64,000 nt of DNA from a virus, in IMG/VR virus record IMGVR_UViG_3300027996_000011, positions 1 to 64,000 of that record; one strand, 5' to 3'. A program made the position numbers and the translations under genes. Of this stretch, positions 57,823 through 61,976 are shown one piece after another. Each line of letters opens with the position of its first letter. Positions within the stretch are counted from its first letter, which is position 1. The notes under the pieces were generated by a model that was given only the letters and a program-made list of their open reading frames with translations, was not told the origin of the DNA and searched no databases.

Positions 57823-59328
57823 ATGTCAACACATAGGTCCTACTTTAGTAAAAATAACACAATAATAGCTAATAGTTATGTAAATACAGCAAAAAATCCT
57901 GTCACACAACTATTTTATGGTAAAAGTCCATTCCCTACATGCGTTTTTACTGGATTATCAGGTGATAGTTGTAATAATCAGAGTGGTTTTACTAGTACAG
58001 TAACAGAAGGTTTTAGTAGATTTATATTTGACCTTGATTTGCGTGATTTGTCGGAAAAAGTAAATAATTGTTGTGTCGAGTTGAGTGATGTAGGAACTAC
58101 TCACACTCTAAAAATGACAAATACATCTAGTTTTGATGATAAGTTATTAAATGATAAAGTTTTGGTTAATGACACTAGAAGGGCTACTTCTTTTGATTTA
58201 ATTTTATTTAAATCGGTTAGTGGTCATAGTTGGGATGAGGGGGTTGGTTATGACTACCTAGTACCTAACGGTATATTTGAACCAGAATTTGATATGACGT
58301 ACTCTACACGACCTAGTCATTGGTTTTCTTGTACAACTCTTTCACATTGGACTTATCCTGGTACATACCTTAACACACTAAGTACTAGTTACGATATCTT
58401 AGATACTCAACATTTTGATAATGGTAATGAGGATATCAACTTCTCTTCTCAGGCTTTAAAAGATGAGATTAATTTTTTATTAACGGCAAGTACTAGTCTT
58501 ACTTCCGGTACAACTTATGGTATAGCTTTTAGTGGGGCGTATGAAAATATAACAGGTATAACAGAATCTTACTCTGTTGGGTTTTTTACAAAGTACACAC
58601 AGACATTTTTTGAACCTTTTTTAGAGACTTTGTGGGATGATGATATTATTGATAATAGAAATAATTTTAATTTATTTAAACTAAATAGGCTTTTTCTTTA
58701 TGTTTCAGACCACAATGGTCAACCAATATGTTTAGATAAACTTCCTAAATGCCAAATATTTGACTGTAATGGTAATCCAGTTGCTAATTTAATTGTTAAG
58801 AAACTAACTTGTGGTGTTTATTATGTGGAACTAACACTCTCATCCCTACCACCGGGTCAATCAACACCAGTTTTATATGAAGATGTGTGGTCAAGTATTG
58901 ATATTGGTGGTGTGACACAACCTAATGTCGAGAATGAGTTTATAATCTATGATAACGCTTTTTCTATAGGACCATCTGCAGCACAACCTAAAGTATATGG
59001 GTATTCTGTTTCTGGTATTAAAGAAGATGAAAAAATAAGTAGTGGTGAAACAAGGAAAGTCTTTATTTCTACAAGAGTACCTTATACAACAGAAAAACAG
59101 GTCTTAGTGGATAATTTACAATACAGGGTTTATGTTACACAAGGAACAACACAAGTAGAGGTAATTCCATGGTCACAAGTAAACATGGGTAACGAACATA
59201 ATTACTTACTTATAGACACTGGGTGGATGATTCCTAACGAATATTACCTAGACATTAAAGCGACTTCTAATCAACAAGTAGATACTTATAGAAAAGCAAT
59301 AAAATTCCAAATAATTAATCAATTATGA
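57823..59328 (+). CDS. Large virion surface protein
   Basis: A 501-residue protein starting MSTHRSYFSKNNTIIANSYV. The opening (HRSYFSKNN, then NPVTQLFYGKSPFP) is similar in style to structural proteins of large Bacteroidota phages. It is beta-rich with Cys pairs near residue 75 (NNCCVEL) and a C-terminal jelly-roll-like region (FQIINQL at the end). It lies after the spike gene and before the GNGNGQ-module protein. A tail or baseplate surface role is inferred. Confidence 0.5.
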   Translation: MSTHRSYFSKNNTIIANSYVNTAKNPVTQLFYGKSPFPTCVFTGLSGDSCNNQSGFTSTVTEGFSRFIFDLDLRDLSEKVNNCCVELSDVGTTHTLKMTNTSSFDDKLLNDKVLVNDTRRATSFDLILFKSVSGHSWDEGVGYDYLVPNGIFEPEFDMTYSTRPSHWFSCTTLSHWTYPGTYLNTLSTSYDILDTQHFDNGNEDINFSSQALKDEINFLLTASTSLTSGTTYGIAFSGAYENITGITESYSVGFFTKYTQTFFEPFLETLWDDDIIDNRNNFNLFKLNRLFLYVSDHNGQPICLDKLPKCQIFDCNGNPVANLIVKKLTCGVYYVELTLSSLPPGQSTPVLYEDVWSSIDIGGVTQPNVENEFIIYDNAFSIGPSAAQPKVYGYSVSGIKEDEKISSGETRKVFISTRVPYTTEKQVLVDNLQYRVYVTQGTTQVEVIPWSQVNMGNEHNYLLIDTGWMIPNEYYLDIKATSNQQVDTYRKAIKFQIINQL

Positions 59329-59660
59329 AAAAAATAAAAATTAAAGAAAATGAACTAGTAGAATTAATAGAAAAACTAGTAAAAGAAAATATAGGTTTTG
59401 CTTCTTCAGCTATAGGTAATGGTAATGGGCAAAACTTTGGTTTAATGGGTACCCCAACGGCAAAATACAAAGACCTTTTAGAAAAAGAAGATATTGAGGA
59501 AGATGATATGGACGACAATGAAAATGAAGTTAGTGAAGAAACACTAAATCTTAATGTGGATGACGAAACTCAAGATGGGTTAAATCAAGAAGATTATATG
59601 GAAAGTGTAAAAGAATCACGATTAATCTCTAGAATTAGAAAAAATTTAAATAAAAAATAA
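59325..59660 (+). CDS. Small acidic protein carrying the GNGNGQ module, paralogue
   Basis: A 111-residue protein starting MKKIKIKENELVELIEKLVK. Residues about 21-53 repeat the ENIGFASSAIGNGNGQ block of the protein at 11369-11656. Here the module is preceded by the I-x-E-x-x-L-x-x-L-I-x-x-L-V-x-E helix motif. The C-terminal half is acidic and ends in a basic helix (RLISRIRKNLNKK). It overlaps the preceding gene by 4 bases. Function unknown; a virion- or scaffold-associated role is suggested by the shared motif. Confidence 0.6.
   Translation: MKKIKIKENELVELIEKLVKENIGFASSAIGNGNGQNFGLMGTPTAKYKDLLEKEDIEEDDMDDNENEVSEETLNLNVDDETQDGLNQEDYMESVKESRLISRIRKNLNKK
59385..59483 (+). repeat. 99-bp duplicated module, copy 2 (partner at 11477-11575)
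   Basis: Plus-strand partner of the minus-strand copy at 11477-11575. The two align without gaps over 99 bases with only a few changes, mostly at third codon positions. Confidence 0.85.
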
Positions 59661-59672
59661 AAAATAAAAACT

Positions 59673-59735
59673 ATGTGTGATTGTCAAATATGTAAATGTG
59701 GTACAAAGTGTGATTGTAGTTGTTGCGATTGTTAA
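59673..59735 (+). CDS. 20-residue metallothionein-like peptide
   Basis: An open frame of 20 codons, MCDCQICKCGTKCDCSCCDC, with nine cysteines in C-x-C and C-x-x-C spacing and no hydrophobic residue beyond one Ile. That is the composition of a metal-binding (metallothionein-type) peptide. It has an A-rich leader (TAAAAAATAAAAAATAAAAA) like other genes here and a terminator 21 bases downstream, and it fills the gap between a real gene and that terminator. Function is inferred. No homologue can be named from the sequence alone. Confidence 0.6.
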   Translation: MCDCQICKCGTKCDCSCCDC

Positions 59736-59756
59736 AACACTAAAATATAGATATAA

Positions 59757-59786
59757 AAAAAACCACCTAATAAGTGGTTTTTTTTT
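59757..59786. terminator. Bidirectional Rho-independent terminator
   Basis: AAAACCACCTAATAAGTGGTTTT forms a seven-pair stem with A-run before and T-run after, so it can end transcripts from either side: the rightward baseplate block and the leftward holin-like gene. Confidence 0.85.
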
Positions 59787-59788
59787 GT

Positions 59789-60097
59789 TTAAATATCTTC
59801 GTCACTTTCGTCAACGTAATCATTGTCATAATCATATTCGTGAGTTACAACAGTTCTACTAGGTGGCTCTGGTTCCTCAACAACCTCACCTTTCGGTGAG
59901 AAATTTTCTGAAGCTGTAAAACCAAGTCCAGCCATTACAATCCATTGTAAAGACTCAAATATATTATCGTCAATTGTGAAATCCCAAAAAAGATTTGCTG
60001 TATAACCAATTAACATAAATAGAAGACATACAAAGGTAACAAATCTTTTACTAGATACTTTACCTTCACTACTTAACATGTTTTTAAAAAAGTTCAT
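59789..60097 (-). CDS. Holin-like membrane protein
   Basis: About 102 residues from the ATG at 60095-60097 (MNFFKNMLSSEGKVSSKRFV). Two transmembrane helices are visible: FVTFVCLLFMLIGYTANLF (residues about 20-38) and FESLQWIVMAGLGFTASENF, with a short polar loop between, and a long acidic tail (YDYDNDYVDESDEDI). The SS-K-R-F start is like Bacteroidota phage holins. Holins open the inner membrane for lysis. The chosen start sits 13 bases after a TATTTATA box. It lies downstream of the capsid gene rather than beside a lysin. Confidence 0.6.
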   Translation of the reverse strand: MNFFKNMLSSEGKVSSKRFVTFVCLLFMLIGYTANLFWDFTIDDNIFESLQWIVMAGLGFTASENFSPKGEVVEEPEPPSRTVVTHEYDYDNDYVDESDEDI

Positions 60098-60109
60098 AAT
60101 TGTTTTTAT

Positions 60110-60117
60110 TATAAATA
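60110..60117 (-). promoter_or_regulatory. Late-promoter-like box TATTTATA before holin-like gene
   Basis: The minus strand reads GATATTTATAATAAAAACAA and then the ATG, 12 bases after the box. It comes right after the terminator of the capsid gene. Confidence 0.6.
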
Positions 60118-60126
60118 TCAGTACAT

Positions 60127-60157
60127 AAAAAAAAGCCCTCATAAAGAGGGCTTTTTT
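60127..60157 (-). terminator. Terminator of the major capsid gene
   Basis: AAAGCCCTC, loop ATAAA, GAGGGCTTT with A- and T-runs on both sides. Read on the minus strand it ends the capsid transcript 23 bases after the stop. It could also work in the other direction. Confidence 0.85.
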
Positions 60158-60179: not shown

Positions 60180-61976
60180 CTAGAATCTTTTCAATTCTCT
60201 AATATCAAATGTTCTAACTCCATCAACAGTGATTCTTCCGTAGAATCTATTGTTCACCATTTTCTTAGCGTATCTAGTCATGATACCTTTGATTGGTGTA
60301 AAGTTGAATGGGTTATACATTGTTGGAGTTAACTGTAATGGTACATACGGTGCGTAAACGTACCCAGTATCCAATAAAGATGTTCCTTTATGTCCAATTA
60401 ACACTTGGTTAGCTGGGAAGTAAGGGTCTCTATATACAGTAAATCTTCCTGATAATGTTCCAATTTTCTCAATACCCATGTTATATGAATCTTGTTCTGG
60501 TGACGCATTTGATACGTGGAAGTATTCCAAGTCATCAAAAATTGCAGAAACCTCTGAAGAACATACAATCCAGTTAGCCCCACCTCTTAAAGTAGACTTG
60601 TGAATTTGAGCAGAAATTTGGTTTATAGTTGTAATCAATGTTTGATTCCAATCTTTTTGAGTATATGGAGCTTGACCAGCTGAGAATCTCTTCCAACCGT
60701 TGTAGTCCCATCTTAAGTCCCATGCTGCACCTTTTCTAAGGTCTCTCAAGATTTCTCTATCGATTTCAGCTGCAACTTCTTCAGATAATAAAGCTGTTAA
60801 TTCAGCTTCAGCATCAATATTATGGAATGCAGAAACATCTTGTGCAAGTTCTGGTGACCATTGAGCTCTTAACTTTCTTTCAGTAACAGAAACTGTAACC
60901 GCTTGTAAGTCAAAAGAAACTTCTCCCATTTGGTCTTCGAATTCAAGACTGTTATACTGTCTCCATTTAGCCGTCATAACATAAGCTGTATCACCTGATG
61001 AACCAACATAACCGTCAACTGATGTACAAGATACACAAGCTGGACAAGATAAGTCTAATTCAAGGAATACTGTTCCTGTAGAGTCACAAACATCAGTTCT
61101 ATCAACAATACCAAATCCGTATTTTTGTGTAACTACACGGAATAAGATTGCTGATTCAGCAGCGTAAGTAACACCAGTAGTTACTGAACCACCTGCAGTT
61201 CCGTCAGTATCACAACAGTTAATTATTGTTGAGTTAGATACAACTAATGAAGATAAAAAGTCTTCATTATCCATCTCGTTACCTTTAGCGTCAGTTAATT
61301 TACCAGCTCCAGTAGTACTAAATCCAGTTAAAGAAACAACAATTGTTCTTCTACAAGCAACGTGATAAGTTGCCCAATTTGCAGCGTCAGTAACTAATTG
61401 GTTTCCTGACCATGCGTAAGGATATAATACTTGTTGTGCTACAGTAAAACTTCCTTTTGAGTAGTCATATAAACCATCATTTGCTTCTTGTGGTGCATTT
61501 CCAGCGTAAAAATCATCATATAAAGATGATGATGCTGCTGAGAATGAAGCTCCTGGAGTTTGTTGATACCCATCAGCTACCGTAGTACCTTCATTTTGAG
61601 GTGCTCCGTAAGGTGAGAATTGTACTCCTGTTGCAGCGTAAGCTGCGATTTTAGGTACAAAGTAAAATAACTTACCAATTGGTAAATTCATAGCTTGTAC
61701 AGAAACGATGTCGTTTGCTAATAATTTAGAGAATACTCTCCTAATTATTGGAAAAACGACTGTTTCGAATGAACCTGAATCAGCAGCTGTAGTAGCTTCG
61801 TTGATTAGGTGTGTTGCTTGGTTTTCATATAGCTGAGCTATATTTTCTTTAACGTGTCCTTTAAGACCGTCTAGGAATCCAAGTTTGTTCCATTTGTTTA
61901 AGGTATCTTCTTTAATAACTTTAAGGTGTTTTAACCCAATGTTACCGACCATACCTGATTCTAATAGTGCTCCCAT
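60180..61976 (-). CDS. Major capsid protein (gp23-like)
   Basis: A 598-residue protein. VTERKLRAQWSPELAQDVSA, then AFHNIDAEAELTALLSEEVA and AEIDREILRDLRKGA match the gp23 core (T4: V-x-x-x-x-x-R-x-L-K-A-x-Y-x-x-E-L-A-Q-D). SGRFTVYRDPYFPANQVLIG, DTGYVYAPYVPL and the last strands also fit. Residue 60 ends HLINE-ATTAAD, a (L/I)-x-E site for prohead protease, so the first 60 residues are probably removed. The extra about 75 residues (T4 has 521) include a surface insertion with Cys pairs (INCCDTDGTAGG and CPACVSC). It follows the scaffold gene and ends at a terminator. Confidence 0.93.
   Translation of the reverse strand: MGALLESGMVGNIGLKHLKVIKEDTLNKWNKLGFLDGLKGHVKENIAQLYENQATHLINEATTAADSGSFETVVFPIIRRVFSKLLANDIVSVQAMNLPIGKLFYFVPKIAAYAATGVQFSPYGAPQNEGTTVADGYQQTPGASFSAASSSLYDDFYAGNAPQEANDGLYDYSKGSFTVAQQVLYPYAWSGNQLVTDAANWATYHVACRRTIVVSLTGFSTTGAGKLTDAKGNEMDNEDFLSSLVVSNSTIINCCDTDGTAGGSVTTGVTYAAESAILFRVVTQKYGFGIVDRTDVCDSTGTVFLELDLSCPACVSCTSVDGYVGSSGDTAYVMTAKWRQYNSLEFEDQMGEVSFDLQAVTVSVTERKLRAQWSPELAQDVSAFHNIDAEAELTALLSEEVAAEIDREILRDLRKGAAWDLRWDYNGWKRFSAGQAPYTQKDWNQTLITTINQISAQIHKSTLRGGANWIVCSSEVSAIFDDLEYFHVSNASPEQDSYNMGIEKIGTLSGRFTVYRDPYFPANQVLIGHKGTSLLDTGYVYAPYVPLQLTPTMYNPFNFTPIKGIMTRYAKKMVNNRFYGRITVDGVRTFDIRELKRF

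Follow-up and report, generated by a model that had tools for sequence, protein, structure and literature searches.

Reading frame, leader, and terminator

Does a frame of 20 codons, nine of them for Cys, at the end of a phage operon encode a functional protein, and if so, of what kind? The frame lies in what we call the window, the whole stretch of 64,000 nt that was analyzed, taken from a 95.7-kb virus record of a T4-like phage. It runs on the plus strand from the ATG at 59673 to the TAA ending at 59735 (stop included) and encodes MCDCQICKCGTKCDCSCCDC, a peptide of 20 aa that contains nine Cys (45%) and no aromatic or His residues. The Cys are laid out as C-x-C-x2-C-x-C-x3-C-x-C-x-C-C-x-C; even when three mismatches are allowed, the window has a single match to this pattern, and none of 100 dinucleotide shuffles has any. 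An earlier note on this DNA had described an intact nine-Cys frame with an A-rich leader and a terminator beyond it, and all three are present, with the coordinates, ATG, and TAA exactly as it had them.

The leader ATAAAAAATAAAAAATAAAAACT (59650..59672, plus strand) is directly 5′ of the ATG and has no Shine-Dalgarno motif, and nearly all homologs of the gene are preceded by a similar A-rich leader. Leaders of this kind, A-rich and without Shine-Dalgarno sequences, are typical of flavobacterial and Bacteroidota translation starts. Beginning 19 nt past the stop codon, the hairpin and U run of an intrinsic terminator (59755–59785, able to serve either strand; a 12-bp hairpin with A and U flanks) separate the convergent operons. 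The 68 nt at this site fold with −14.1 kcal/mol, compared with −4.8 for shuffled sequences (z = −4.4; 0 of 200 shuffles equal it). A consensus terminator scan of the window did not list the hairpin at 59755–59785; related contigs have a hairpin-T terminator at the same spot, with different stem and loop letters.

The 5′ neighbor is a 111-aa ORF (59325..59660, plus strand) at the 3′ end of the plus-strand operon. It follows a 501-aa ORF of unknown family (57823..59328, plus strand), a probable member of the structural operon and the anchor of neighborhoods of the window type. Convergent with these, on the minus strand, are a 117-aa membrane-like ORF (59789..60142), which is a conserved neighbor in relatives (cluster 24), and the gene for the major capsid protein gp23 (60180..61976; Pfam Gp23, 1.8e-73; phrog_138, 2.3e-66). 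Homologs of the 111-aa protein in two contigs (L003 and L004) have ~50 extra C-terminal residues with four Cys (GKGCAESEGGSGCIKKRG...C...C); the window's protein stops ahead of this four-Cys domain.

Distribution among viruses

Relatives of the 111-aa ORF, located downstream from the same 501-aa gene, were found in seven contigs, and in three of these a peptide occupies the same slot as in the window (MKCDCKVCECGTKCDCTCCDC, MCDCEICKCGTKCDCTCCDC, and MKCDCQVCKCGTTCECTCCEC). A first scan of IMG/VR used a DNA pattern that demanded neither a start nor a stop; it matched 34 contigs, and in all 34 there is an ATG zero to three codons before the first Cys and a stop directly after the last. With a wider pattern, built to leave out poly-Cys repeats, we found at least 119 contigs, and the matches listed include ~90 distinct peptides, nearly all of 20–23 aa. 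The homologous peptides share an odd Cys count, the absence of a signal peptide, and a near absence of aromatic or His residues: His or Tyr is rare, and there is one His among the peptides defined by their neighbors. These sequence comparisons lead us to regard the nine-Cys ORF as a genuine protein-coding gene. The earlier note had named a broken or unconserved frame as what would speak against it; the frame is intact and is conserved in many relatives. Its remark that such a frame is too short for usual gene finders is also supported, since this is evidently a real short gene conserved in related phages, and abundant functional genes of ~20 codons would by the same token escape gene finders.

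Two variants stand apart. A longer form of 36 aa on a 158-kb contig (L109) has the motif's N-terminal part duplicated (MRNRQNCNCENCKCQKACNCMKCNCSKSCDCACCDC). The variant MCECKECKCGSTCECKCCEC (L017, L036, and L043) has a Shine-Dalgarno-like GGAG and neighbors with signal peptides, which suggests hosts of another group or contigs that are not from phages.

No isolate phage with a nine-Cys gene was found in our blast and pattern searches. Against isolate phages, tblastn of the peptide gave no match, which says little because of low-complexity filtering, and the matches from blastn at E 10, in phages and plasmids, were all short and at the level of chance. The exact pattern is absent from Flavobacterium phage immuto, Microcystis phage Mel-JY01, and one 484-kb uncultured phage.

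Chromosomal copies in marine flavobacteria

In a scan of genome contigs, the matches listed are mostly poly-Cys readings of trinucleotide repeats, together with one real match (L275). A Flavobacteriaceae sample gave one match in 399 genomes, and a phylum-wide sample gave none in 395. Within the genus of the Flavobacteriaceae match, 17 out of 25 genomes match exactly and 18 match under a relaxed pattern; a three-mismatch search of the same 25 added low-complexity noise only, and no partly decayed copies. The genus consists of streamlined marine Flavobacteriaceae with genomes of ~0.8–1.3 Mb and a GC content of ~28%–29% (two loci measured).

All copies in the 18 genomes have nine Cys, and all are at one syntenic place, beside a gene of the Na/Ca exchanger family and near glutamine synthetase, pirin, and MsrA genes. 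This place is without phage genes and outside prophage, and the same locus is present in the MAG Cryomorphaceae bacterium SI034_bin14, the source of the one real match above. The peptide genes stand alone here: the next gene is ~360–510 nt away and often on the opposite strand. The synteny of these copies therefore marks the gene as resident both in phages and in a genus of marine flavobacteria. In every genome of the genus that carries the gene (L692 and L694–L711), AAAGTTATTAACAATTT or a near match occurs ~40–60 nt downstream; this conserved element is possibly a regulator, promoter, or DnaA-type site.

Selection on the cysteine positions

Because pattern searches favor Cys, we also collected loci by their neighboring genes alone. 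Relatives chosen by a 163-aa neighbor (see below) comprise 35 loci with a peptide, in a slot 75–83 nt upstream, and 34 of the 35 peptides have nine Cys. Relatives chosen by an FAD oxidoreductase neighbor have nine Cys in 16 of 16 peptides, so that the two neighbor-chosen sets together have nine Cys in 50 of 51. The sole Cys loss among these loci is a change to His (CAC; MKCDCKECNCGTTCEHTCCNC). CAC is at least two base changes away from any Cys codon, and His is a metal ligand.

The codons tell a similar story. For the loci chosen by the 163-aa neighbor, Cys codons have a pN/pS of 0.026 and the remaining codons one of 0.91; for the chromosomal copies, whose Cys codons differ by silent changes only, the corresponding values are 0.00 and 0.73; and the window clade has 0.13 overall, all of these being pooled, non-independent pairwise counts over 19–20 codons, to be read as strong contrasts and not as calibrated tests. 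Selection preserves the number and spacing of the Cys while the other residues drift, as would be expected of a metal-thiolate cluster. The earlier reading of the Cys pattern as of metallothionein type gains from this comparison.

Placement in phage genomes

We surveyed the neighborhoods of 106 non-redundant loci and found the peptide gene in at least four unrelated phage neighborhoods. The first, as in the window, is between a tail/structural operon and gp23. The second, comprising ~44 of the 106 loci, is ahead of genes for an FAD-dependent oxidoreductase, a kinase-like AAA protein, and the large terminase. In the third the peptide gene precedes a DNA primase, with 65% identity to the primase of Flavobacterium phage immuto, and an exonuclease. 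In the fourth it lies between gp23/scaffold-like genes and the genes for a Cys-containing 163-aa protein and a clamp-loader-like protein. Further placements are scattered, one of them beside a tail sheath gene.

Inside each of these neighborhood blocks there are many relatives cleanly without the peptide gene. The gene is missing from many close relatives and is therefore accessory; judging from its placements, it is also mobile between phage neighborhoods. The capsid protein and the primase have relatives in Flavobacterium phages, which, with the A-rich starts, may point indirectly to a flavobacterial host for these phages.

An RNA element is found ~40–130 nt 5′ of the FAD oxidoreductase start (L532–L611): a hairpin with an invariant or nearly invariant loop, GATTCATAGC, whose stem covaries, with two-sided changes in four of five pairs (18 sequences). 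A terminator hairpin opening with CTGTGGCC comes after it. Pairing of CATAG in the GATTCATAGC loop with CUGUG could compete with this terminator in the style of a riboswitch-type attenuator; the element has no match in Rfam.

Association with a small cupin

In 35 of the 106 loci, a small cupin gene is found ≤1.5 kb upstream of the peptide gene. In 23 loci the cupin and peptide genes are directly adjacent or share a few bases, and in two of the non-redundant loci (L039/L040 and L095) they are fused in one reading frame. Invariant His and acidic residues mark the cupins, which contain the motif WHxDxEDR, itself invariant, and a second HR motif; their match to Cupin_2 is weak (4e-5, under the curated cut-off). 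When 80 loci are defined by the cupin, a nine-Cys peptide adjoins it in 11, and shorter or differently spaced Cys peptides fill the same slot in six. No cupin gene is detectable in the window phage's own genome, so the coupling is not general. For the phages that carry the cupin, a functional link with the peptide is plausible, and adjacency and fusion hint weakly that in some of them the peptide may load or protect the cupin's metal site.

Other short Cys peptides are found both in the FAD oxidoreductase slot (L564, L536, L539, and L545) and in the cupin slot (L637, L644, L658, L673, L677, and L686); examples are MKRFICDLVYALSFRNICFGWCGSKIKCDCNCNC, MNCNCKTCNCDPCDCSCSCC, and MKTRDDECECGNCGCGNG. 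These suggest that phages have a broader set of small metal or thiol peptides. In L095 and L315, a large ORF 1.4–1.6 kb upstream of the peptide opens with MCNCGCNTCDTKKS or MCNCGCNTCDTNKS, a Cys-rich tag that looks like half a nine-Cys peptide fused to the N terminus of a large phage protein.

Function of the peptide

The locus is probably a minimal metallothionein gene, of 20 residues and nine Cys, common to T4-like phages and marine flavobacteria. From the nine thiolates, the odd Cys count, the absence of a signal peptide, and the one replacement of Cys by His, we infer a cytosolic metal cluster in preference to disulfides. By analogy with nine-Cys metallothionein domains, we expect with good confidence that the thiolates would fold around three to four Zn/Cd ions, or a larger number of Cu(I) ions. 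With moderate confidence, the peptide would be produced together with the phage operon that holds its gene and, again with moderate confidence, would buffer or sequester a thiophilic metal (Zn and/or Cu) inside the infected cell. Such buffering might either supply phage zinc proteins, for example the primase, or shield the cell from metal freed during host takeover, perhaps limiting toxicity as host proteins are degraded. The phage copy would then count among auxiliary genes of host type.

Among other accounts, the one that fares best has the peptide serving in redox or thiol chemistry, as a reductant, a buffer of disulfides, or a scavenger of ROS, instead of storing metal. Nine thiols would suit such a role, and an FAD oxidoreductase is near the peptide in ~44 of 106 loci; however, the oxidoreductase belongs to a conserved synteny block and is missing from the other contexts. 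Redox buffering needs neither an odd Cys count nor strict C-x-C spacing, and the single Cys loss observed goes to His, which makes this account improbable.

We consider it very improbable that the ORF is a leader peptide whose Cys codons sense the supply of Cys-tRNA in cis and attenuate a downstream gene, the peptide itself being functionless. Very Cys-rich short ORFs can serve as Cys-responsive leader peptides in bacteria, and in one context the peptide does lie upstream of an FAD oxidoreductase gene preceded by structured RNA, but the same RNA element also occurs where the peptide gene is missing. In the window, the ORF is followed by a terminator and convergent genes, and attenuation fails as an explanation there because no gene to be regulated lies downstream on the peptide's strand. 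The isolated chromosomal copies, with their distant and often oppositely oriented next genes, speak against it as well, and a mere counter of codons would need neither the exact nine-Cys spacing nor the conserved C-terminal Cys.

The chance that the peptide is a metal-binding virion or assembly factor produced with the capsid operon, a role that the earlier note had named as one possibility, is slighter still. Its gene is beside capsid genes in the window and in the other contexts near gp23, but the same peptide adjoins primase/exonuclease, FAD oxidoreductase/terminase, clamp-loader, and cupin genes and stands alone on bacterial chromosomes without phage genes. Proximity to a capsid operon is therefore one placement among several, and the virion role fails because capsid operons are absent from most contexts. 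A chance ORF or assembly artifact, for which a length of just 20 codons might speak, has next to no likelihood and is refuted by the conservation data: no shuffle reproduces the pattern, which 18 genomes and a large number of independent contigs keep, with silent changes.

Returning to a metallothionein, we lean toward a wider proposal, with somewhat more in its favor than against it: that the peptides form an undescribed, ultra-short metallothionein family whose gene belongs to the chromosomal core in a streamlined genus of marine flavobacteria, and that this gene has repeatedly spread into phages, has there been coupled with, or fused to, that of a small cupin that binds metal, and supplies a phage-borne buffer managing host Zn or Cu during infection. 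If true, this metallothionein family would be, as far as the sources searched document, the first that phages encode, and its members would be among the smallest gene-encoded metallothioneins (20–21 aa, 45% Cys; that of Neurospora crassa has 26 aa). It would mean that phages manage intracellular thiophilic metals, would open the control of trace metals in infected marine bacteria to testing, and would provide a natural minimal nine-Cys scaffold.

Comparison with known families

The peptide has the general attributes of metallothioneins: low mass, very high Cys content, C-x-C, C-x-x-C, and C-C motifs, few or no aromatic or His residues, and a constant Cys layout among otherwise variable residues. 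Searches of Pfam, NCBIfam, and PHROGs gave no family match, and 10 diverse members gave none in Pfam/NCBIfam at E up to 10, where HMMER filters lower the sensitivity for 20-aa sequences. With the family profile, the sole match in the PDB is wheat Ec metallothionein (2kak), at a non-significant E of 2.9. The nine-Cys peptides share the stretch CGCGEHCGCNPCAC with wheat Ec-1, which is a plant protein of different architecture.

Like BmtA/SmtA and Pseudomonas PflQ2MT (Pfam Metallothio_Pro), the nine-Cys peptide is bacterial and Cys-rich. Its C-x-C-x2-C-x-C start presumably resembles that of SmtA, which we take as a lead only. It is, however, far shorter than these proteins and has no His; known bacterial metallothioneins have His ligands and a zinc-finger-like fold (PMC10612145). 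We therefore do not place it in the BmtA/SmtA family, given that it matches no curated profile, lacks His, and is too short for a zinc-finger-like fold.

The fungal Cu metallothioneins (Binz-Kagi family 8; N. crassa and Agaricus bisporus; 26 aa, seven Cys) are alike in shortness, and they too are of single-cluster size and rich in C-x-C. That of N. crassa, formerly held to be the shortest, includes the stretch CNCGSGCSCSNC (PMC4755600), which is near CNCGTSCDCTCCNC of the nine-Cys peptides. In contrast, the nine-Cys peptides have 20–23 aa, a CC pair, and a C-terminal Cys, are of phage or bacterial origin, and have nine Cys in a spacing unlike that of the seven in ~26 aa of N. crassa, which places them outside family 8. 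With homology not shown, the resemblance is likely convergent.

Full-text literature searches, which did not extend to the small-phage-gene catalog of Fremin et al. (2022), found no phage or viral metallothionein, and in this the gene differs from the known phage auxiliary genes, among which the literature searched describes no metallothionein. In other respects it resembles the auxiliary metabolic genes that phages share with their hosts: it is of cellular type, being present outside prophage on bacterial chromosomes, it occurs in many phages, and it is accessory and moves between neighborhoods.
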